Positions 5,701 to 29,621 of a stretch of 64,000 nt of DNA are shown here, piece by piece. The translations under genes and the position numbers were made by a program. Origin of the DNA: Roseofilum casamattae BLCC-M143 (GTDB lineage Bacteria > Cyanobacteriota > Cyanobacteriia > Cyanobacteriales > Desertifilaceae). Location of the stretch: the NCBI RefSeq assembly GCF_030068455.1, contig NZ_JAQOSQ010000003.1, forward strand, positions 124,001-188,000. Direction: 5' to 3'. Numbering within the stretch: position 1 is the first letter of the stretch; every line of letters starts with the position of its first letter. A model generated the notes under the pieces. The model worked only from the letters and a program-made list of their open reading frames with translations. It searched no databases and was not told the DNA's origin.

Positions 5701-6069
5701 ATGACTGTTTCCTGTCACTTCATCGTTGAAGGCAATCCAGTAGTTGTTTACGCCAGCCGGCACGGCACTCCGAAAAAAGTTGTGCCCAAACTTCAACGAT
5801 TCCTCAATACATTTACTCAAGAGCGCCAGACTATGGGAGAAACGGTACATACTCCCGAATGTTTAGTGGCACAAATCATCGTTCGATTTGGTTTTGAGCT
5901 ATGCGAGGATGACTTTTCTAACCTGCGCGTCGGTTTAAGTTACGATCCTAAGATAGACTATCTTTATCAAGTGACCGATACCTTTGATATTAAAGTGCTG
6001 GAACCTTTAGATGCTTACCGAAATAACCCGGATTTAGGTTTAAATGGGTGTAAAGAAGTAAACGTTTAA
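5701..6069 (+). CDS. Conserved-looking hypothetical protein, 122 aa
   Basis: I do not recognise the family. The product is soluble, with no signal peptide or membrane segment. The N-terminal part (VSCHFIVEGNPVVVYASRHG, then KKVVPKLQRFLNTF) reads like a small alpha/beta fold, and the C-terminal part (FELCEDDFSNLRVGLSYDP ... YLYQVTDTFDIKVL) is strand-rich. Cysteines are at about positions 5, 50, 67 and 117 with no metal-binding spacing. It lies 41 nt upstream of the TPR-CHAT gene on the same strand, so co-transcription is likely and a functional link is possible but unproven. A TATAAT lies 40 nt upstream of its start. Confidence 0.7.
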   Translation: MTVSCHFIVEGNPVVVYASRHGTPKKVVPKLQRFLNTFTQERQTMGETVHTPECLVAQIIVRFGFELCEDDFSNLRVGLSYDPKIDYLYQVTDTFDIKVLEPLDAYRNNPDLGLNGCKEVNV

Positions 6070-6110
6070 TATCGCGGGTTCCATCTTTTTCCTTCGCCTT
6101 TTCTCCAACA

Positions 6111-8651
6111 ATGAAACTCCAGCATTTCTTATCTAGCTTGGCAATAACTATTCTCGTTCTCTTCCCTCAAGCAAGTGGGTCTCTGCCAGCAGACGGACAA
6201 CGGGAAGTTTATCAAAACATGTTGGAAACCTATCCCCAGGAGTTAGAGCAAGCGAGAGAGTCAGGCGATCCCCTATTTGAATTAGGAGTATTGAATAAAG
6301 GAGCGTCAGCCCATCAATATTTTGGCCAATTTGAACGAGCGATCGCCCTCTACGAAAAAGCTCTGGCGATCGCCAAACAGGTTGAAGATTCAGAGTTGCA
6401 AGGCAGTATTCTCTGGAGCTTAGCTGTAGCTCACAGCAAGTTAGGCGATGCCTATGGAATTAACTTTCTCGAATCTCAGTTAGCAGAGGAGAAACGGCCG
6501 AAACCCCGTTCGGTTATTCTCAAATATTTGAGTATTGCTTACAGTCAATCACAGGATCTAGAACGATCCTTAGTCCTGCGCGAGGACTATGTACAGCTCG
6601 TACGCCAAATTGGCACGAAGATGGAAGAAGTGAGTGCCCTTAACGATTTAGGCTTAGCTTATTTTGCTCTGCAACAATACGATCGCGCAATTGCCATACA
6701 AGAGGAAGCTTTAGCCTTAGCAAAAGGTGTTGGAAACGCGGTCTTGCATGGCGGTATTTTAGTTCATTTAGGCATTAGTTACAGCTATGCCGATCGCGAA
6801 GATAAAGCGCTCGAACAATTTGAAGCCTTATTAGAATTGGGAAGAGAAGCAGGCAATAGTTATCAACAAGACCAAGCGCTGAACACGATTTCTGAATATT
6901 ACACCATTCGGGAAGATTATCAGCGCGCGATCGCCATTCAGAACGATCGCCTGGAGCTGGCGAGAAAACAGAAACACTTTACCGATGAAGCCTTTGCTCT
7001 ACAAGATTTAAGTCGTATTTATTACTGGTCGGGAGAACTAGAGCGAGCGATCGCCATTCAAGAAGAGTCTCTAGAGCGAATTGACCGAGGATTTAAGCAA
7101 CAGCAAGCTGAGGTTCCCGCAGCAGCAGAAGCTTTAGAATATTCCTCTTCGATCGCTCAAGCCTTAGGGTATGAAAAATTAGGCTTTCTCTGGTTGCAAG
7201 CGAATAATCTACCAAAAGCGCGATCGAGTTTTCGCAATGCTCTGGAAGGATTGGAACAACAGCGACAGCAAACTCTAATTAATCCGAATTTCGTCAATAT
7301 GAGTAAAGACCAACTTTCGGTTTTTGCTTACGACCAATCTACAGATATTTATCGCTTGCTGCAACAAATTGCCGTCAAAGAAAATCAACCTTTGCGAGGA
7401 TTAGAGCTATCAGAAGCCGGACGAGCCAGAGCGCTAGTAGACTTGCTGGTGAGCAAACTTTCAACCAATCCAACGGCGATCGCCAAAACCCCACCCCCGA
7501 CAATCGAACAAATTCGCCAAATTGCCAAAACCGAAAACAGCACTCTAGTTACCTACACCATTCAATACGAATACGGACGCTTTTATCAATACGGTCCCGG
7601 ACAATGGTTAAAAGGAGATCCTCCAGAAAAAATTGCCACAGAACTCTACATTTGGGTCATTCAACCCACTGGCAAGATAACTTTCCGCTCGGTTCCCCTA
7701 AATTTTGTTCTGGACGATTTAGTTAGAAACGCCCGCAATTCAATTATTGTGGAAGGACAAGGACGCTTGCGTCGCCGCCGTTCATCTGGAGAACCCTTAA
7801 AAGAGCTGCACGGTTATCTGATCGAACCCATCGCCGATCTCCTCCCCACCGATCCGCAAGAGCGAGTTACGTTTATTCCTCAAGATAGCCTGCTCTTAGT
7901 TCCCTTTCCTGCTCTGCAAGATACCAATGGAACTTATCTGGTAGAACAGCATACCCTAATGACCTCCCCTTCCATTCAAGTCTTGGATCTGACTCGGAAA
8001 AACCGCTTGCGAAATCAACAACAACGACGAACGGATACTCAACCTCTAGTGGTTGGTAATCCAACAATGCCGGAGATTAAGCTCGAAGGGGGAGAAGTCA
8101 GCGTACAACTCGATCCCTTACCGGGTGCAGAACAAGAAGCACAAACCATTGCTACATTATTGCAAACCGAAGCTTTAATTGGCGATGCGGCCACTAAACC
8201 GGCAACGATCGCCCGAATGCAGTCCGCGCCGATTATTCATTTAGCCACTCACGGCCTGCTCGACGATCGCGGTGGCTTTCTCAGCTCCCTCGCTCTCGCT
8301 CCCACCAGTGACGATGCCGGTTTTCTGACGGCCAAAGAAATTGCCGGACTCTCTTTAGCTACAGAGCTAGCCGTACTCAGTGCCTGCGATACCGGACGAG
8401 GCACTATTAATGGAGATGGAGTGGTGGGGTTGTCCCGTGCTTTTGTTAGTGCGGGAGCCGAAGGTGTTTTAGTTTCTCTCTGGGCAATTCCCGATCGCCC
8501 CACTGTTATTTTGATGGAAGAATTTTATCGACAACTGCAACAAGGAAAGGACAAGGCAAGTGCGTTGCGATCGGCAATGGCCATGGCAAAACAACAATTC
8601 CCAGAACCTCATAATTGGGCGGCATTTACCTTTATTGGCGTCTCGGAATAG
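6111..8651 (+). CDS. TPR-CHAT domain protein (caspase-like protease fold)
   Basis: 846 aa. An N-terminal signal peptide-like run (LAITILVLFPQASGSLPA) suggests export. Residues about 50-350 hold roughly six to seven TPR repeats (for example YDRAIAIQEEALALAKGVGN). Residues about 380-440 contain the linker usual for these proteins (ELSEAGRARALVDLL). Residues about 530-846 are the CHAT peptidase domain with the His in HLATHG and the Cys in LSACDTGRG, followed by GLSRAFVSAGAEGVLVSLW. Both catalytic residues are intact. CHAT proteases relate to separase and caspases, and some act in defence or regulated proteolysis; in cyanobacteria TPR-CHAT proteins are abundant and mostly uncharacterised. The 122-aa gene just upstream is a possible partner. 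The 3' end converges on the aspartic protease-like gene with 30 nt between stops. Confidence 0.92.
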   Translation: MKLQHFLSSLAITILVLFPQASGSLPADGQREVYQNMLETYPQELEQARESGDPLFELGVLNKGASAHQYFGQFERAIALYEKALAIAKQVEDSELQGSILWSLAVAHSKLGDAYGINFLESQLAEEKRPKPRSVILKYLSIAYSQSQDLERSLVLREDYVQLVRQIGTKMEEVSALNDLGLAYFALQQYDRAIAIQEEALALAKGVGNAVLHGGILVHLGISYSYADREDKALEQFEALLELGREAGNSYQQDQALNTISEYYTIREDYQRAIAIQNDRLELARKQKHFTDEAFALQDLSRIYYWSGELERAIAIQEESLERIDRGFKQQQAEVPAAAEALEYSSSIAQALGYEKLGFLWLQANNLPKARSSFRNALEGLEQQRQQTLINPNFVNMSKDQLSVFAYDQSTDIYRLLQQIAVKENQPLRGLELSEAGRARALVDLLVSKLSTNPTAIAKTPPPTIEQIRQIAKTENSTLVTYTIQYEYGRFYQYGPGQWLKGDPPEKIATELYIWVIQPTGKITFRSVPLNFVLDDLVRNARNSIIVEGQGRLRRRRSSGEPLKELHGYLIEPIADLLPTDPQERVTFIPQDSLLLVPFPALQDTNGTYLVEQHTLMTSPSIQVLDLTRKNRLRNQQQRRTDTQPLVVGNPTMPEIKLEGGEVSVQLDPLPGAEQEAQTIATLLQTEALIGDAATKPATIARMQSAPIIHLATHGLLDDRGGFLSSLALAPTSDDAGFLTAKEIAGLSLATELAVLSACDTGRGTINGDGVVGLSRAFVSAGAEGVLVSLWAIPDRPTVILMEEFYRQLQQGKDKASALRSAMAMAKQQFPEPHNWAAFTFIGVSE

Positions 8652-21893: not shown

Positions 21894-22337
21894 AGTAAGG
21901 AACCAATGCGATTAGTGAAATGCGATCGCCACTCAAGCTCGATTGAGGTAGATTTTTTCATGAAGTTCAATGGTCAGAGGATAGAAAAGTTAAATTATTA
22001 GGTAAGAATAAATTGAAATAACTATTCAGTAAAAATGAAGAGATAATGACGGTAGAGATAGGTTAACGTAGCTAAATTGTATAGTGATGACAACTGCTCA
22101 AACAATTTAGAAAAAAGCGCAAACAACTCGTAATCCAATACTGTGATACCTAACTGCAGGATAGTTCCTGAACCTATTTGCGGAGCGACAAGATGCTGGA
22201 ATATCTTTCCAAGAGCCACTACGTACCGTACAACTCTTTTATCCTTTTTGATTGCCTGTCTCGGTCGAATTGTCACTTTCATCGCTTATCGGATCGTAAC
22301 AGCTTACTGAACGTTACGAGATTAATCACACGTTCGG
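21894..22337. other. 444-bp gap without a supported gene
   Basis: A+T-rich non-coding stretch. Short open frames exist on both strands (for example 22022-22282 minus, 86 codons) but show no recognisable motif or ribosome-binding site, and they lie mostly antisense to one another. I see no RNA gene here. Confidence 0.5.
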
Positions 22338-23054
22338 TTATCGGCGATCGCAATCTCCCCCAATCAACGACAATACTACAATCGGAGCGGTAACGGCGCG
22401 CAAAATGCGTTGACCTAAAGAAACCGGTTGAAACCCGACTTGTATTGCTCCTGCAATTTCTTTCTCTGTCCATCCCCCTTCCGGTCCCGTTGCGACAAAC
22501 ATCGATGCTCCTGCTGGGGGTAACTCGTATGCGAGCAAGTGAGGTAACTGTCCTCTCGCAACGCACAAATAAGCAGAAGAAGAAGAGTAATCCTCAGAAT
22601 GGAGTATTTGAGTAAAGGATAGCGGTTCGTCAATACTCGGAACGGTTTGCCGCTCTGACTGTTCTGCCGCTTCTGTCGCAATACGCCGCCACCGCTGCAC
22701 CTTTTGCGCGCTGGGTTTAAGTAGAGTGCGATCGCTCATTACTGGTACGATCTTCATGACCCCAAGTTCCGTACAGCAACGGACAACCTCATCAAACCCA
22801 TGTTTCGGTAGTGCGGCAATTAATGTCACCGAAACCGGTAGCTCCGTTTGTATGGGAATCTGCTCTAGCCGTATTGCCCTCTGACCGCCATCCAGCTCGC
22901 TCAACCACCACTGACCAGCTATAATAGCAAAAAAGCGATCGCCTGTTTGCAAGCGCAACACCCGATGCAGATAACGATATTGATCGGCGGTCAGCCGTAT
23001 CTCTTCGCCACTCAACTGCTCTAAAGCAATAACCAGCCGCTGCAATTGAGTCAT
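22338..23054 (-). CDS. rsmE: 16S rRNA (uracil-1498-N3)-methyltransferase
   Basis: 238 aa SPOUT methyltransferase that methylates U1498 in the ribosomal decoding region using S-adenosylmethionine. Seen: an N-terminal PUA-like part (LTADQYRYLHRVLRLQTGDRF), KHGFDEVVRCCTELGV, ATEAAEQSERQTVP, and the trefoil-knot SAM site VATGPEGGWTEKE followed by LGQRILRAVTAP. Most family members read LGxRILRxETA; here the Glu is Val (codon GTT), a change in a normally very conserved loop. Start ATG at 23054. It lies next to tRNA-Gln on the same strand. Confidence 0.93.
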   Translation of the reverse strand: MTQLQRLVIALEQLSGEEIRLTADQYRYLHRVLRLQTGDRFFAIIAGQWWLSELDGGQRAIRLEQIPIQTELPVSVTLIAALPKHGFDEVVRCCTELGVMKIVPVMSDRTLLKPSAQKVQRWRRIATEAAEQSERQTVPSIDEPLSFTQILHSEDYSSSSAYLCVARGQLPHLLAYELPPAGASMFVATGPEGGWTEKEIAGAIQVGFQPVSLGQRILRAVTAPIVVLSLIGGDCDRR

Positions 23055-23079
23055 AAGACTAAGATTGTTTGGATTAAAA

Positions 23080-23151
23080 CTGGGGTGCTAGGATTCGAAC
23101 CTAGGAATGTCGGGACCAAAACCCGATGCCTTACCGCTTGGCGACACCCCA
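23080..23151 (-). tRNA. tRNA-Gln (UUG)
   Basis: Cloverleaf on the minus strand: 7-bp acceptor stem TGGGGTG/CACCCCA, D-loop AAGCGGTAAGG, anticodon stem TCGGG/CCCGA around loop TTTTGGT (anticodon TTG), T-arm CTAGG-TTCGAAT-CCTAG. The discriminator base is G, as expected for tRNA-Gln. CCA is not encoded. Confidence 0.97.
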
Positions 23152-23272
23152 TTGACATCACCTTTGATATGATAGCTTTAAACACGGGTCATTTGTCAAG
23201 GGTTTGCTCAAAACTTTTGGTCAAGCCAAACTTGAAGAACTATTTCTCAACCGTTTACGCGATTAAACCACT

Positions 23273-23668
23273 GTGCTGTTTTCAACTCCTCCATCTCTTC
23301 CCAAAGTTCTCGCTGTTGACGACAGCCCCATCGTCCAGATGCTGGTTCGGAATGCGCTACAAGACCGAGACGTTGAAGTCCTCGTTGCTGATAATGCCCT
23401 TGATGCGCTTAACCTCCTCTATAGTGAGACAATCGCAATTATTCTGCTTGATGTTTCTATGCCAGGAGTCGATGGCTTAGAACTCTGTCGCACGATCCGA
23501 GGCATCCCTCAATTTGGAGAACTACCGATTGTCATGGTGACAGCTAGAGATAGCCCTTTCGATAAAGTCCAAGGTACACTTGCCGGAGCCAGCGAGTATC
23601 TCACCAAGCCCTTTACTCCTGAAACGTTACGAGAAATTGTCCAGCGCTTTCTCCAGAATGCCAATTAG
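23273..23668 (+). CDS. Single-domain response regulator (CheY-like)
   Basis: 131 aa, one receiver domain and no output domain. Seen: VLAVDDSPIVQMLV (acidic pocket DD), the phosphoacceptor Asp in IILLDVSMPGVDG, VMVTAR with the switch Thr, and YLTKPFTPETL with the conserved Lys. All residues for phosphorylation are present. The start is a GTG at 23273; no ATG is close. The partner kinase is not encoded nearby. Its likely role is phosphotransfer or protein-protein signalling. Confidence 0.92.
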   Translation: MLFSTPPSLPKVLAVDDSPIVQMLVRNALQDRDVEVLVADNALDALNLLYSETIAIILLDVSMPGVDGLELCRTIRGIPQFGELPIVMVTARDSPFDKVQGTLAGASEYLTKPFTPETLREIVQRFLQNAN

Positions 23669-23728
23669 TGGGAATCAGGGGAAGCGTTCCCCTCTTCCCA
23701 TATTCTCTCCGGCAGAGGCGATCGCAAT

Positions 23729-24184
23729 TTAAGAACTCGCCGTTTGAGTTGCCAGCATCTCTTTAAGTTTCTCGAGATCGGCAGCCCAACGAGGATCGGG
23801 TTGAATCGAACCATTATCGCTGTGGCCCGATGGAGACGAACCTCTTTTGCCTTTATTTTTCTTGCGACCGCTAGAGCTTGCCGTTGCCGTACTCGCCGCC
23901 GCATTGGCTTCGGCACCGCCACCCTCTTTGCCCTTACTCCGAGGTTGGGCTTTCTCAATTTTCAGGGCGCTTTCTTTCAGCATAAACCCATTAAATTGCT
24001 CGATGATTTGGTCGGCTTGCTCGTCATTTTTCACGGTAACAAAGCCAAAACCCCGACACTTGCCTGTTTTGCGATCGACGATCACCTTTGTAGACACTTT
24101 GGGTTCGGTTTGTTCAAAAATGGCTTCTAGCTCTTGCTTTTCCGTTTCTTTCGGCAAGTTACCAACGTATAAACGTACAGACAT
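23729..24184 (-). CDS. RRM-domain RNA-binding protein (cyanobacterial Rbp type)
   Basis: 151 aa from the ATG at 24184, preceded by GGAGGTC about 9 nt upstream. Residues about 2-80 are one RRM with RNP2 (RLYVGNL) and RNP1 (KCRGFGFVTV). A low-complexity linker rich in Gly, Ala, Ser and Lys follows (about 85-130), then the conserved-looking C-terminal peptide QPDPRWAADLEKLKEML. Cyanobacterial Rbp proteins bind RNA, and several are cold-induced or involved in mRNA localisation near thylakoids (family knowledge). The longer-linker form with the PDPRWA tail resembles the non-glycine-rich subgroup. Confidence 0.92.
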   Translation of the reverse strand: MSVRLYVGNLPKETEKQELEAIFEQTEPKVSTKVIVDRKTGKCRGFGFVTVKNDEQADQIIEQFNGFMLKESALKIEKAQPRSKGKEGGGAEANAAASTATASSSGRKKNKGKRGSSPSGHSDNGSIQPDPRWAADLEKLKEMLATQTASS

Positions 24185-24640
24185 TGATAAGACCTCCGTA
24201 ATTAGTCTGAAGTAACATATATAGGGCACAATTTAGCGGGACGATTTGCTAACGCAGAATCGACGCCATCAAAGACAGGAGTCAACATGACAAACCTTTC
24301 ACCTTAGTTGATAAACCTGAACGATCCAGCCCCGATCGGACATCCCATCGATCGCTGATTTTCATGGAAAGCTTTTTCTTCTCCGAAATATTCGGCAAAA
24401 GAAGAACTGGGTTTCCTGTTGAAGTTACTGTAAAATTTCCAGATATTTCTATCGGTGTCGAGCACATATTTTTCTAATTTAGGTGGCTCTGCCATGTTTA
24501 GTTCGTGCCGTACTTAACCTATCATGTTTTGGCAGATGAAGCTACCCAAAACTCAATTATTTTATCTCGATCTGAATATTTTGTCATCCCCTGACTCCTT
24601 GCCATCCCTCATTTGCCTCTTTTGGCCGCCCGCAAACAGT
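24185..24640. other. Non-coding gap upstream of the RRM gene
   Basis: It should contain the 5' leader and promoter of the RRM gene (leftward). A 63-codon minus-strand frame at 24304-24495 exists but has no family resemblance that I can see. Nothing else is supported. Confidence 0.4.
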
Positions 24641-24668
24641 AAAAACCAGCCGAGTTGAGCGGCTGGTT
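24641..24668 (-). terminator. Rho-independent terminator for the M48-like gene
   Basis: A perfect 9-bp inverted repeat AACCAGCCG/CGGCTGGTT with a 7-nt loop; read leftward it runs directly into TTTTTAC. It lies about 145 nt after the stop codon of the leftward gene ending at 24813. Confidence 0.75.
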
Positions 24669-24812
24669 AACTTGCTGTGTTGGGAGGAAGAACACATGAT
24701 TCCAAAGCAGTTTCCCTGCACTTGCATCTAAAATGTTGCGCAATTCACTGTTCTGGTTCGCGCCTTCATGTAAAGAAATGTAACACAAGCAGAGAAATAA
24801 AACAATCTTTCG

Positions 24813-27062
24813 TTACGTTTGCCAAATGAGATAAGCGGCTCTGAGGCCGCAAACGATCGCGATCGCGGCTAAAACAATAGGATGATAGCTCCAGCTCGGA
24901 ATTGGCGATCGCCCTTGGAGATAAGATAGATCGAGCATAGATGTATGAGTGCGGCGAAACCATCCTCCCACCGAAACTGACTGACCGATGGAATCTTTGG
25001 GCGAGACGACATTCACGCCAACATCGCCAAAAATACTGGCCGACGGACAATGGCGCAGAATCATCAATTTATCGCGAGTTTGCAATATTAAGTTCTGGCC
25101 CAAACCATTACGAACTCCTCGGCGTCCCAGCAACTTACCTTGCAATCGTAGAATCGGGCGATCGCTCGGCGTGCCTTGAGGATCGACCGCCAGAGCCTGT
25201 ACGGTTTCCCAACTACTATTGGTCTGAGAGCGACTTTTCGTCGGCTTAACTTCCGGATAATACCCATTCAGGCGAATCATTACGATAATGCTGAATGCCA
25301 TGAACCAACAGGCTTGCATCAGATCGCCATATCGATCTTCCATCAACCAAACCAATTGACCGATATAAAGAAAATAGGCGATCGCGCCAGTAAGAGCGAG
25401 TAATAAACGCAATCCCACTGCCCCTATTGTACTTTGCAGCAAGGCACTGGGTAACAGTGGCAAGCCCCGAGAAATAGCGCGCCAGGTCACGCGAACGAGT
25501 ACGAATAATCTTTTTAAACCGTCTGGAATATTAGCAGGCATTGACGGACGATGAGACCGCATTGAGGGCAAATCCAACTCCGTCTCTATCCGAAAAAAAC
25601 GGGCATAATCGGCTAATCGTTGCAGGCGATCGCCCAACAGTCCGTGACTGCTCCCTAGACTCAACCCATACCGATAAGGATTGTGTAAATCCCATTGGAA
25701 CAGGGTTTCTAAGGGTTCCGAGGCGGGAATATTACCGATAGCAACTCCTTGCTCCCAAGACAGGGGCAACAGTAAATCGAATCGTTCTATTAACTCGGGA
25801 GTTACAGATGTTCGCGCGATGCACTGATGCCACGCTTCTCCTAATTTTAATAAGGCACGGGTCAGAGCATTAGGATTGCCGGTAATGCTGGTTGCGGCGC
25901 GATCGCTATAAAGCAATCGCCATCGAGATAGGAGAAGCAAGGGCCAGCGCAAGAGCCGATCGAAGGTATAGCTCAGATTCGCCAGCAAGAGAGAACTGTG
26001 CCACAACAGGAATTCGAGGGCGGGAACTTCAATGCGATCGCTCAGTTTCTCTCCCCATTTTGCGATCGACCAATAGCAGGTATAAGGCAGTTGCAGGACG
26101 CAGACACTGACTGAAAGTAAAACAAAATCCCAATGAACAATCTGACTCAGTTGAGTGACATACAGCGCGGCCAGTTCCTCATCGTTCAAGCAATCGATCG
26201 TTCCTTGAGAAATAATAATCCGGGCAGTTTGCGGCAAATTGCCATAAGTAAAGATTACCGGAGTAGTTGTCGGCAAAATCCCCAGAGTGGGTTGAGGCAG
26301 TTTGCGCTGGCGACAAAACCGTTGGATCGCAGTAGCAGACTCCGGACGGATGGCTTGCAAATTCTCCAGAGTTAGGGGAGCGAGCTGATAGCTGCGCTTG
26401 AGAAGTGCTGAAAGAATCCAAGGCGATCCGAGCAGAATAATTGAAAATAAGATAAGTAGGGCTAACGTTGGATCGGCGCTCAACCCTCTCCACGGACTTA
26501 CCCATGGCAGAACCAGTAACAGTTGGTGCACCAGCAACCCTGCGACTTTGATAACGATCGCGCTCCAATAAAAAAAAGCGATCGCTACCACAACTTGCGC
26601 TCCCCATAACCAGCGCAGATCCGAGCCAACTTCCCCGGTTTTCGGCAAGCTGTTCCAGCGTTTGGCTCCTGGTGCTTGTCGCCACTGTCGAAACCCCGGC
26701 CCCTTTTCCTCTTCATCCGTTTGCTTGCGAAACTCCGGTGGAATCTCGAATTGAATGGTTTCATCCGAGATAACCGGCGCTGGAATTGGCTCGGAGAGTT
26801 CCTTCAATGTTTGAACCGCCAAATTTTGCAGGTTGGGATTGCTCGATTCCACTAAACCTTGACATAATGCGATCGCCCGCTCGACTTGTCCCAGTTCGCG
26901 ATAGGTCATCGCCAGTCCCATGCGAGCGCGTTCGGTACGAGAACTTTCCGGTTCGCGATCGCAAACGCCTTGCAAATGAGCGATGGCGCGATCGTAATCT
27001 TTCTGTTTTAGTGCGTTTAAACCTGCTGTCAGAGAAGGACGCTTGGGGGGAGATGATGGCAT
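24813..27062 (-). CDS. TPR / M48 peptidase-like membrane protein lacking zinc ligands
   Basis: 749 aa. Residues about 10-90 are TPR-like repeats (GLNALKQKDYDRAIAHLQGV). Hydrophobic segments near 150-190 and 200-222 flank the start of an HtpX/M48-like region. The typical context of the active site is present (DEELAAL before it, HWDF after it) but the HExxH position reads TQLSQ (about 303-307). The third zinc-ligand region, usually REYxAD, reads RLLYSDRAA (about 382-390), and the later GDRLQRL helix of M48 proteins is retained. So the fold looks like M48 but the catalytic and zinc residues are gone, consistent with a pseudopeptidase. The C-terminal about 110 residues (LQGKLLGRRGVRNGLGQ...) form an OB- or SH3-like region plus a last membrane helix. 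Role unknown; a membrane quality-control adaptor is a guess. Confidence 0.75.
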   Translation of the reverse strand: MPSSPPKRPSLTAGLNALKQKDYDRAIAHLQGVCDREPESSRTERARMGLAMTYRELGQVERAIALCQGLVESSNPNLQNLAVQTLKELSEPIPAPVISDETIQFEIPPEFRKQTDEEEKGPGFRQWRQAPGAKRWNSLPKTGEVGSDLRWLWGAQVVVAIAFFYWSAIVIKVAGLLVHQLLLVLPWVSPWRGLSADPTLALLILFSIILLGSPWILSALLKRSYQLAPLTLENLQAIRPESATAIQRFCRQRKLPQPTLGILPTTTPVIFTYGNLPQTARIIISQGTIDCLNDEELAALYVTQLSQIVHWDFVLLSVSVCVLQLPYTCYWSIAKWGEKLSDRIEVPALEFLLWHSSLLLANLSYTFDRLLRWPLLLLSRWRLLYSDRAATSITGNPNALTRALLKLGEAWHQCIARTSVTPELIERFDLLLPLSWEQGVAIGNIPASEPLETLFQWDLHNPYRYGLSLGSSHGLLGDRLQRLADYARFFRIETELDLPSMRSHRPSMPANIPDGLKRLFVLVRVTWRAISRGLPLLPSALLQSTIGAVGLRLLLALTGAIAYFLYIGQLVWLMEDRYGDLMQACWFMAFSIIVMIRLNGYYPEVKPTKSRSQTNSSWETVQALAVDPQGTPSDRPILRLQGKLLGRRGVRNGLGQNLILQTRDKLMILRHCPSASIFGDVGVNVVSPKDSIGQSVSVGGWFRRTHTSMLDLSYLQGRSPIPSWSYHPIVLAAIAIVCGLRAAYLIWQT

Positions 27063-27122
27063 CGGTTTAATGCAGCCTTGAATGTTAAACGACCTACGCT
27101 CCTCCCTGGCACAAACAATTGT

Positions 27123-28004
27123 CTAGCGAGTCGCGTCATAGACTTTCATCATAGCCTGAGTTCCCAACTCCTCTCCACTGCCGTTATCTAAGACACTTAC
27201 TGCTTGGAAATAGCGATTGGCTAATTCGGTTCCCGGTAACTGCTCCGCTTCCATCATCTCTAATACTAAGCGCAGATCTTTTAAAATATGTTTAATCGCA
27301 AATCCAGGAGCAAAGTCCGAAGTCGTAATTTTCGGTCCCAAATTCGATAAAACCCAAGAGCCAGCCGCTCCACCGCTACAGACTTCTACAATTAAGTTCG
27401 GGTCGATCTGTTGCTGTTGCGCCAATTTTATCGCCTCGCACAGTCCGAGCGTATTAGCGGAACAAAGGACTTGGTTGCACAGTTTCACCCCTTGTCCGCT
27501 ACCCACCGGCCCGCAGAGATGAATGGATTTTCCCATAATTTGAAATAAGGGCAAGCATTCTTGGAAATCTGCCTCCCTCGCCCCCACCATAATGGTTAGA
27601 GTGCCTTGTTGCGCGCCAATATCGCCGCCAGAAACCGGAGCATCCACGAACCGCAGTTTTTTTTCCTCGAGAGTTTGGTAAATCGCCCGTGCAGACCTCG
27701 GCCCTATGGTACTCATATCCACTACCAAAGTTCCCGGACGAGCAAAATCAGTCACGCCGCCAGGAGCACAGAGGACTTCTTCCACATCCGGCACATCGCC
27801 AACACAAGAAAAAACGACATCGGCCGTGGCTACGGCTTCTGCAATTGAAGATACTATTTCTACGCCACCGGCGATCGCCACTTCCACCCCCGGACGGTCT
27901 GGAGTACGATTCCATCCCTTCACCGAATATCCAGCACGAGCCAGATTGGCGCTCATCGGCCCTCCCATAACGCCTAATCCCAGAAATGCGAGTTGTTGAT
28001 TCAT
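27123..28004 (-). CDS. NAD(P)-dependent 3-hydroxyisobutyrate dehydrogenase-family oxidoreductase
   Basis: 293 aa from the ATG at 28004; the frame extends to 28217 but the added residues are low-quality Arg/Ser-rich sequence. Seen: FLGLGVMGGPMSANL (GxGxMG dinucleotide loop), NRTPDRP suggesting NADP preference, VDAPVSGGDIGAQQGTL (substrate-binding signature), the catalytic Lys region GQGVKLCNQ, and KHILKDLRL in the C-terminal helical domain. Members reduce or oxidise beta-hydroxyacids such as glyoxylate/succinic semialdehyde or tartronate semialdehyde; the substrate cannot be chosen from sequence. It follows a Gfo/Idh/MocA gene by 53 nt on the same strand, so the two may form an operon. Confidence 0.92.
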   Translation of the reverse strand: MNQQLAFLGLGVMGGPMSANLARAGYSVKGWNRTPDRPGVEVAIAGGVEIVSSIAEAVATADVVFSCVGDVPDVEEVLCAPGGVTDFARPGTLVVDMSTIGPRSARAIYQTLEEKKLRFVDAPVSGGDIGAQQGTLTIMVGAREADFQECLPLFQIMGKSIHLCGPVGSGQGVKLCNQVLCSANTLGLCEAIKLAQQQQIDPNLIVEVCSGGAAGSWVLSNLGPKITTSDFAPGFAIKHILKDLRLVLEMMEAEQLPGTELANRYFQAVSVLDNGSGEELGTQAMMKVYDATR

Positions 28005-28057
28005 AACTGTTGATTGATAACGCGATTGATACGCGTTTGTACTCGATTGCAGCTTAG

Positions 28058-29125
28058 TTAAACGGTGAGTACTGGGGAATGGAGAACCCCAGAATGAGGA
28101 TCTAGCTCGCGATCGGATTGGCCCTCGAGAGCCATCTGTTCGATCGAACTCGCCAGTCGCAACGCTCTGAGAGCTTGTTCTCCTCCCACCGAAGGTTGAT
28201 CGCCACCGCGAACGCAAGTAACAAAATGCTCCAGTTCGGCATGTAGGGGTTCGATATTGCTGGTATAGACTTTTTCAATTAATCCATCTTGGCGATAGAG
28301 GACTTGACCGTATTCCGTGCGGTAGTTTGCCGTCGTTTGCCGATGAATGGAGATTTCATTATTGAGGAAATCCGCTTCCGTTAAGGAATTTTTGCAATGA
28401 GCGGCAATGCGCCGGATTTTGCAGTGGGTTACTTTGCTCGCGGTTAGCGTAGCAACAATGCCATTCTTAAATCCCAAGGTAGCGGTGACGTAGTCTAAAT
28501 AACCGGAGTCAGAGGCGCGGTTGCCACTGGCTGTTAAGTTCGTCACTGGAGCAGCAGCAAGCTCCAGGAGCAGGTCGATGTCATGAATCATTAAGTCCAA
28601 CACCACCGAAACATCGTTGGCTCGGTTCGAGTACGGACTCATGCGATGGGCTTCGATCGCCAGAATTTCTTCGGTTTTCAGGACGTTGCTCAGTTCCTGA
28701 AAGGCGGGATTAAACCGTTCGATATGGCCCACTTGCAAGATTCGGTTGCATTGGGCCGCTAGGTTCACTAGGTTTTCGGCTTCTTCAATACTGGCAGCGA
28801 TCGGTTTTTCGATCAGCACGTGAACTCCCGCTTCCAAACAGGCGGTTCCCACTTCGTGATGGAGACGAGTCGGAACGGCGATGCAAACGGCATCAACATG
28901 GGGGAGGAGGTCGTGGTAGTTTTCAAAGAAGCGAACTTGATACTTTCCGGCTGTATCTAATCCTCGCTCGACATCAACATCAGATACACCGATTAAGTGT
29001 ACGTCTCTGAGCAGGCTGAGAACTCTGGTATGATGCTGGCCCATATGACCGACACCAATGACTCCGAGTCGAATCGGATTGGGAGAATTGCGCGCTCCAT
29101 TGGCATTGGAATTTCCCGATGACAT
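28058..29125 (-). CDS. Gfo/Idh/MocA-family oxidoreductase
   Basis: 355 aa from the ATG at 29125, with GGAG 11 nt upstream; a TTG at 29164 is in frame but less likely. N-terminal Rossmann domain (RLGVIGVGHMGQHHTRVL), then the family motif HVLIEKPIA with the conserved Lys/Pro, and DLMIHDIDLLLEL with the His/Asp pair used in catalysis. The C-terminal half is the alpha/beta substrate domain. These enzymes act on sugars or related compounds with NAD(P); the substrate is not evident. Similar proteins in cyanobacteria are often annotated as inositol or UDP-sugar dehydrogenase-like. It probably forms an operon with the downstream 3-hydroxyisobutyrate dehydrogenase-like gene. Confidence 0.92.
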   Translation of the reverse strand: MSSGNSNANGARNSPNPIRLGVIGVGHMGQHHTRVLSLLRDVHLIGVSDVDVERGLDTAGKYQVRFFENYHDLLPHVDAVCIAVPTRLHHEVGTACLEAGVHVLIEKPIAASIEEAENLVNLAAQCNRILQVGHIERFNPAFQELSNVLKTEEILAIEAHRMSPYSNRANDVSVVLDLMIHDIDLLLELAAAPVTNLTASGNRASDSGYLDYVTATLGFKNGIVATLTASKVTHCKIRRIAAHCKNSLTEADFLNNEISIHRQTTANYRTEYGQVLYRQDGLIEKVYTSNIEPLHAELEHFVTCVRGGDQPSVGGEQALRALRLASSIEQMALEGQSDRELDPHSGVLHSPVLTV

Positions 29126-29318
29126 GATATCTGGCACTCCTGTCTTTTGCTCCACCACCGCCAAGGTTTTTTGTGGGTGTATGTCTGACTCGATCGAGCC
29201 ATCAAGATAGTAACATAGCTGCTCGATTCTGCTCTAGGAGTTGAGACCTGATTTTCTTCTCAACTCCTCTTGGCGCGATCGCTCTCACCAGAACTCAAAG
29301 GATTCTCGCCAGAATGGT

Positions 29319-29621
29319 TTAGGTAATGTAAGATCGAATGTCGTAGTCGAGATCGCTTAGAAAGCACAAACACCGGAACCGCAAGCTCATCAACTCTTCA
29401 TAGAGAGGATTCAGTTTGCACAGGGGTGGAATGCAAATCAGGGTACGGCCGAAACATTTAATTTCTCGGGCAAATGGACATTGAGCCGGTATTAAATTGA
29501 GGACTGCACGGGCGAATTGAGGTCGGTGAATCTCCAGGCCATTCAGCCATTGACGTGCTGGGTGCAGTAGATCGAATTTGGGTGAGAATTTGAACGGATT
29601 TGGACTCATCTTAACTCGCAT
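29319..29621 (-). CDS. Mo-dependent nitrogenase C-terminal-domain protein (orphan)
   Basis: 100 aa from the ATG at 29621 (AAGGA 4 nt upstream); an internal ATG at 29609 is also possible. The whole protein matches my memory of the Mo-nitro_C domain: DLLHPARQWLNGLEIH, IPAQCPFAREIKCFGRTL, IPPLCKLNPLYEELMSLRFR. The name comes from its occurrence with nitrogenase genes, but free-standing copies are common in cyanobacteria that do not fix nitrogen, and no nif gene is in this window. Conserved Cys residues are at about 48, 56, 63 and 68 and could bind metal or form disulfides. No function is established. Confidence 0.85.
   Translation of the reverse strand: MRVKMSPNPFKFSPKFDLLHPARQWLNGLEIHRPQFARAVLNLIPAQCPFAREIKCFGRTLICIPPLCKLNPLYEELMSLRFRCLCFLSDLDYDIRSYIT

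Follow-up and report, generated by a model that had tools for sequence, protein, structure and literature searches.

A probable M48 pseudoprotease clade in Cyanobacteria, with TPR and OB-fold domains and a recurrent rbpG-type neighbor

The gene and its predicted protein

We analyzed a stretch of 64,000 nucleotides from Roseofilum casamattae BLCC-M143 (contig NZ_JAQOSQ010000003.1), which we will call the window. A single open frame on its reverse strand encodes a membrane protein of 749 amino acids with N-terminal TPR repeats, an M48-like core that lacks the usual zinc motif, and a predicted OB-fold domain. Downstream of it, the next gene (also on the reverse strand) encodes an RbpG-type RNA-binding protein, and a short conserved element lies between the two genes (Table 1).

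Table 1. Features of the locus, in window coordinates. Residue numbers are those of the 749-residue protein.
Feature	Coordinates	Strand	Residues	Basis or remark
TPR-M48-OB membrane pseudoprotease CDS	24813..27062	-		single open frame
N-terminal TPR domain	26787..27041	-	about 8-92	Pfam TPR_19/TPR_16, model helices, LapB and Fis1 structure matches
First hydrophobic helix pair	26388..26630	-	145-225	model helices 145-184 and 199-225; 19-residue hydropathy 2.11 and 2.32
M48-like core with internal helix hairpin	25593..26378	-	229-490	Peptidase_M48 at 251-484, structure matches
Former HExxH site, TQLSQ	26142..26156	-	303-307	alignment of 134 members
Former REYxAD site, RLLYSD	25902..25919	-	382-387	alignment of 134 members
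Retained active-site-plug motif (HPx4R), HGLLGDR	25626..25646	-	473-479	family tally and published motif
Later hydrophobic helices	25260..25457	-	536-601	model helices 536-565 and 580-601; hydropathy 1.82 and 1.55
OB-fold domain with GWFRR motif	24915..25169	-	about 632-716	separate model, OB structure matches
C-terminal hydrophobic helix	24819..24884	-	727-748	model and hydropathy
Conserved CCCAACACAGCA with terminator-like stem-loop	24642..24684	-		between both genes; may be a small RNA or a terminator
Class II RNA-binding protein (RbpG/Rbp3 type), PDPRWA motif	23729..24184	-		start at 24229 in the ORF list; homologous Met at 24184

The domains are arranged in the order TPR, membrane, M48, membrane, OB fold, membrane. 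The Pfam TPR matches lie within residues 11-74 (TPR_19 at 17-74, E = 4.9e-7). Pfam's Peptidase_M48 model matches the window protein at its threshold (20.4 bits against a cut-off of 20.3), and it matches all 27 members of our family alignment, with E values of up to 0.01 and a best value of 4.6e-19. The best score of an NCBIfam HtpX model against the window protein is 64.1 bits (E = 1.2e-17). The protein does not reach HtpX equivalog status, as the curated cut-off for its best match is 341 bits; the cut-offs of the six best-matching HtpX models (275-422 bits) are all far above its score. Because family members match M48 and HtpX models, they could easily be misannotated as active proteases.

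The window protein aligns end to end with relatives from three genomes of its own genus (54-55% identity), and in two pieces with relatives from two further genomes of the genus. A chance match or a wrong reading frame is ruled out by the single open frame, by the full-length alignments within the genus, and by the dN/dS ratios (below).

A first-pass annotation, made from the DNA letters alone, had reported this open frame, with TQLSQ in place of HExxH and Leu in place of the Glu of REYxAD, and we confirmed all of this. It had also described HtpX-like motifs around these sites, and they are where it placed them: DEELAAL at residues 294-300, HWDF within VHWDF at 309-313, and GDRLQRL at 477-483, which overlaps the plug motif HPx4R. 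The N-terminal TPR region that it had proposed is supported by Pfam, and the several membrane helices by a structural model and hydropathy.

AlphaFold's model of the window protein (built on 77 sequences) has a mean pLDDT of 86.8. It comprises, in order, TPR helices, a hydrophobic pair, an M48-like core with an internal hairpin, and more hydrophobic helices; a beta domain follows, and one further hydrophobic helix closes the model. In Foldseek, the first three ranks were Ste24p (E = 0.0035), ZMPSTE24 (E = 0.014), and HtpX (E = 0.12). In VIA, the rows for the whole model were mostly TPR proteins. ZMPSTE24 was matched there at Z = 11.6 (4aw6, rmsd 9.2, 243 aligned) and Z = 11.2 (2ypt, rmsd 5.9, 211 aligned), which are middling matches, being below the caution level of about Z = 13 for helical proteins. 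Overall, the Pfam match just above its cut-off, the matches across the family, and the middling structural matches to ZMPSTE24, Ste24p, and HtpX place the core in the M48 fold, and the structure prediction that the first-pass annotation had called for gives a Ste24/ZMPSTE24- and HtpX-like fold.

We also modeled the beta domain alone (residues 627-726; mean pLDDT 74.7), and it has the five-stranded strand order of an OB fold. Its top Foldseek matches were chains of LysRS (best E = 0.0048). In VIA, the OB folds of PriB, SSB, and AsnRS were among the rows with Z of 6.8-8.0, with a best OB score of Z = 8.0. The net charge over residues 602-726 is +8.

Loss of the zinc site

We recruited relatives by similarity to the window protein, or by a conserved TGNPN pattern that was confirmed by tblastn; loss of the zinc motif was not a criterion. 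(A scan of contigs with the window protein as the single query found no relative.) The contig scan by TGNPN and tblastn yielded 517 relatives, and we used the best 80, many of which are from Nostoc; we will call these the named loci. For a tally of the zinc site, 143 rows were reduced to 134 distinct members, including the window protein. The tally omits L186, which is in pieces, and also L083 and L084, which match L095 and L097 in the lengths and scores of their pieces; the pieces L095, L097, and L099 were kept.

The first zinc-binding histidine (position 303) and the third-ligand glutamate (position 383) are each absent from all 134 members, which rules out a strain-specific loss of these two residues. 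The other positions of the site vary. The catalytic glutamate (304) is present in 46 members and the second histidine (307) in 86, with 33 members having both. Histidine is found at position 383 in nine members, six of which have His307 as well. The window protein lacks all three ligands (303, 307, and 383). His307 is kept in all five same-genus relatives examined, and it is Gln in the window protein and in two relatives from the same family. So the question posed by the first-pass annotation, whether the loss is ancestral or specific to the strain, has a different answer for each residue: the loss of the first histidine and the third glutamate is ancestral, and position 307 varies within the genus. 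The 33 members with Glu304 and His307, and the six with His383 and His307, speak against the reading of this family as pseudoproteases; members that keep Glu304 and His307, or that have His383, may bind metal, as far as their residues indicate.

In E. coli BepA, the histidine of the plug motif HPx4R, on the active-site plug, is the fourth zinc ligand (PMC7950410). This motif is retained: His473 is present in 129 of 134 members, Pro474 in 116 (it is Gly in the window protein), and Arg479 in all. Asp387 is also invariant, and Ser386 is present in 124 members. Of BepA's four zinc ligands, the window protein retains an equivalent of the plug histidine only. The first-pass annotation had claimed that all recognizable zinc ligands were lost; this is correct for the HExxH histidines and the third glutamate, but it overlooked His473, along with Arg479 of the same motif. 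In short, of the features of an active M48 zinc metallopeptidase, HExxH and the third glutamate are absent and the plug's histidine and arginine are present.

In the alignment of 134 members, we found no conserved cluster of Cys or His that could form a replacement zinc site. We considered a hidden substitute site, but the columns with over 50% Cys or His (67, 250, 307, 473, 585, 670, 671, and 727) are scattered across the domains. Judging from the aligned sequences, the catalytic metal site of this family is gone and the plug is retained.

Relatives with an intact HExxH do exist, and they form a separate group of paralogs. We call this cyanobacterial TPR-M48-OB family A2, as we found no published name for it. 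By hhalign, A2 and the pseudoprotease family match with 100% probability over 649 columns. They have the same architecture, and the GNPN, HPx4R, and GWFRRG motifs are common to both. Since A2 proteins carry the same domains, the architecture alone does not indicate a new function. The families differ in that HExxH and the glutamate are intact (HELGH...REYxAD) in 18 of the 24 A2 members examined; the other six comprise five with broken sites and one with a truncation there. The broken zinc sites are in L065, L066, L067, L070, and L174, with HELAQ, YQLGR, QALGR, or QQLGH.

Our careful tree has 70 rows (50 pseudoproteases, 16 A2 proteins, and four HtpX), and the four ligand columns were left out. 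In this tree, the 50 pseudoprotease representatives form one group with support of 98/98, and in 96% of 200 bootstrap trees their grouping needs one change. Two long rows, L073 and L069, had been removed. With them, a quick tree of 72 rows (the careful search was unfinished) placed A2 inside the pseudoprotease rows and did not recover the clade. That tree flagged the two long rows, and without them, a quick tree and a careful tree, each with 70 rows, both gave one group. (The tally of 134 includes L069 and the related L183, neither of which is in the careful tree.) The A2 group itself has weak support (44/29).

Because their absence is common to all members, the loss of the first histidine and the third glutamate is best placed at the stem of the clade; from these alignments and the tree, the loss is ancestral and preceded the clade's diversification. 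The second histidine and the catalytic glutamate appear to have been lost piecemeal, because parsimony requires at least 11 and at least 8 changes, respectively, within the 50 rows. Over the whole tree of 70 rows, there were at least five changes between intact and broken sites, and therefore some members of A2 have lost catalysis as well.

Profile searches of 292 sampled genomes from the phylum (where scoring covered each genome's top three candidates, and each candidate was assigned to the family whose profile scored higher) identified the pseudoprotease in 69 genomes, all from the window's class. A2, including broken copies, was found in 34 genomes. Both families were found in 22 genomes, only the pseudoprotease in 47, and only A2 in 12. 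The window genome is 98% complete, and we found no A2 among its top three candidates. Because of this absence and of the 47 genomes with the pseudoprotease only, it is unlikely that the pseudoprotease generally needs A2. The window genome has six other M48 genes with HExxH (L071-L076), of which L072 encodes 525 amino acids.

The first-pass annotation had also proposed a test for selection. From the 76 named genes that encode at least 650 amino acids (among the best 80 of 517 relatives), we took 26 independent pairs with dS of 0.03-1. The median dN/dS was 0.154 (range 0.087-0.255), and by this measure the gene is under purifying selection. In the same pairs, and among the regions compared, pooled pN/pS was lowest in the helix that held HExxH (0.107) and in the third-ligand helix (0.101); the whole protein gave 0.219 and the linker 0.437. 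The ligand columns themselves are variable, with entropy percentiles of 0.88 (residue 303) and 0.72 (residue 383) within residues 229-495.

With homology to proteases, loss of catalytic residues in the lineage, and purifying selection, the window protein almost certainly belongs to a clade of M48 pseudoproteases that arose long ago in cyanobacteria, as judged from these comparisons. The conserved pseudoprotease that was suggested at first is thus borne out by the tree, by the tally of 134 members, and by the selection on the gene.

The rbpG-type neighbor and the element between the genes

The neighboring protein has an RRM_1 domain (E = 4e-18) and a longer C-terminal region with PDPRWA, so it is a class II RNA-binding protein; the class II Rbp3/RbpG type is defined by the PDPRWA motif (PMC9333190). 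PDPRW is found in all 63 proteins of the neighbor's cluster, including the window's.

Among the named loci (the best 80 of 517 relatives), 73 have at least 1.5 kb of flanking sequence, and 60 of these have an rbpG-type gene within 2 kb on the same strand. (The other seven named loci were excluded because the flank was too short.) The 13 loci without this neighbor include every locus from Moorena and Symploca whose flank is long enough. The neighbor is also present in 16 of 20 representatives with under 60% identity, in 11 of 20 further loci that were chosen mostly from other lineages, and in both of two loci from the same genus, and it is absent from all ten A2 loci examined. The conserved gene order may reflect function or inheritance, and we consider it a lead.

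On the upstream side, 8 of 19 representatives have the gene for release factor RF3 (prfC), as do 5 of the 20 further loci; it is absent in the window. In a set of 81 loci (L087-L166 and the window), RF3 is upstream in 52, and a gene for ALAD (hemB) is farther upstream on the opposite strand in 38.

In published work, Rbp3/RbpG is implicated in thylakoid organization and in the localization of photosynthetic mRNAs, and the RbpG of Anabaena sp. PCC 7120 (all4377) is reported to matter for the levels of photosynthetic mRNAs, thylakoid organization, and PSII repair (PMC11500504). Judging from related genomes, the gene on the upstream side of all4377 would be expected to encode a member of the pseudoprotease family. 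Published lists give all4376 as SpsB and all4377 as RbpG. We found no mention of all4378 in papers that name all4376 or all4377.

In the window, the CCCAACACAGCA motif is followed by a hairpin (CCAGCC-loop-GGCTGG) and then TTTT. Because of this terminator-like hairpin, and because 583-628 bp separate the two genes, the pseudoprotease gene and rbpG are probably not in one operon. An exact pattern for the element occurs once per genome in 18 of the 292 genomes, and the reversed control gave no matches. A looser pattern was found in 39 of the 60 named loci with the rbpG-type neighbor and in none of the 13 without it (both from the best 80 of 517 relatives). The element is possibly a small RNA or a conserved terminator. 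No Rfam family matched it at the gathering score. Above that score, Rfam reported one tRNA in positions 22000-29500 of the window and one tRNA in ten loci. A match in the element region below the gathering score (E = 0.74, to a human lncRNA family) was taken to be chance. A paper on small RNAs (PMC4734099) had no match in its main text to the neighbors' gene numbers or to the element's motif.

At one locus (L229), the element is upstream of rbpG, and about 4.5 kb separates it from the gene for the pseudoprotease, so the element may belong to rbpG. Another locus (L234) has the element in a genome with no pseudoprotease match at 1e-30; we found no rbpG in that 3-kb locus.

Possible roles of the pseudoprotease

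Ste24 and ZMPSTE24 are active zinc CAAX proteases with no known TPR or OB domain. These M48A proteins were the window protein's top two structural matches in Foldseek and also matched in VIA. The window protein resembles HtpX (M48B) in its core fold, membrane helices, and plug motif, but it is far under the HtpX cut-offs, adds TPR and OB domains, and has lost zinc ligands. E. coli BepA differs from the window protein in being periplasmic and active; its TPR is located after its protease domain, and it is not known to have an OB domain. Like the window protein, BepA combines M48 with TPR and has a plug with HPx4R, and chaperone as well as protease roles are reported for it (PMC7950410). The FtsHi proteins are from the AAA+ FtsH family, whose fold is unrelated to M48. 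As inactive kin of a membrane protease, Arabidopsis FtsHi pseudoproteases are comparable to the window protein, and they have an important function (PMC8197885). Among the matches listed for openly licensed literature on M48/HtpX or on cyanobacterial pseudoproteases, we found no description of this clade. A paper on the Nostoc flagelliforme proteome names an M48/htpX protein, which we were unable to connect with the clade.

We propose, as the probable explanation, that the window protein is an ancient M48 pseudoprotease that acts as a membrane scaffold or chaperone for client proteins. It would hold no catalytic zinc and would cut no peptides. A membrane chamber like those of Ste24 and HtpX, still gated by the HPx4R plug, would bind segments of membrane proteins or of nascent proteins; the TPR domain would recruit partners; and the OB domain would contact RNA or another factor. 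Loss of catalysis in some A2 members as well fits a non-catalytic use of this scaffold. That client binding, rather than some other non-catalytic role, is the function is a tentative choice, not quite an even bet. The first-pass annotation had raised the binding of misfolded membrane proteins, and binding of membrane-protein clients is plausible. As the loss is ancient and clade-wide, with the fold and the plug kept, the family could show, as a natural experiment, what purpose an M48 chamber serves once catalysis is gone.

It is also conceivable, though we consider it unlikely, that the protein takes part in RbpG-dependent thylakoid biogenesis, as an anchor or receptor in the membrane that contacts photosynthetic mRNA bound by RbpG, or the ribosomes of that mRNA, through its OB and TPR domains. 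The recurrent rbpG-type neighbor and its absence beside A2, the prfC gene upstream at some loci, the published roles of Rbp3/RbpG (PMC11500504), and the resemblance of the predicted OB fold to nucleic-acid binders all favor this. However, the two genes in the window are probably transcribed separately, the neighbor is missing from 13 of the 73 named loci and from 9 of the 20 further loci, and the adjacency may be in part an inherited gene order; the named loci are mostly from Nostoc and its relatives. A bolder version, which we regard as a long shot, combines this idea with the scaffold: early in cyanobacterial evolution, a protease fold would have lost its zinc and become a membrane receptor that serves thylakoid biogenesis. 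Photosynthetic mRNA bound by RbpG, with its ribosomes, would dock on the OB and TPR domains, and the empty M48 chamber, gated by its plug, would hold emerging photosystem proteins uncut. The recurrent rbpG neighborhood offers an entry point to the question of which factor serves as the thylakoid-membrane receptor for photosynthetic mRNA.

It is common for pseudoproteases to regulate active members of their families. We also considered the first-pass annotation's suggestion of a regulatory subunit, which would pair with an active M48 paralog, HtpX, or FtsH and tune its activity. Partners are available, in that the window genome has the six other M48 genes with HExxH and A2 accompanies the pseudoprotease in 22 of its 69 genomes. 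But the closest paralog was not found, among the top three candidates scored, in the window genome or in 47 of the 69 genomes with the pseudoprotease, so the suggestion is not supported in the form given, and we think such a role rather improbable.

An unusual active enzyme, with a different metal site formed by His473, Asp387, and sometimes His307 or Glu304, is very improbable: the plug histidine is nearly always kept and a quarter or so of members keep both Glu304 and His307, but the window protein matches just one of BepA's four ligands and no conserved Cys/His cluster replaces the rest. Least probable of all is a decaying gene without function. In L095 (Hormoscilla) and L099 (a MAG from the Chroococcidiopsidaceae), two open frames take the place of one, which favors decay, but dN/dS is at most 0.255 in all 26 pairs, the gene is present in 69 of 292 genomes, and 76 of the 80 named loci (the best 80 of 517) have an open frame of the expected length (at least 650 amino acids). 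The two frames of L095 (at 5917-8530) overlap, and L083 (at 378-2991), with its equal piece lengths and scores, may be from the same genome.
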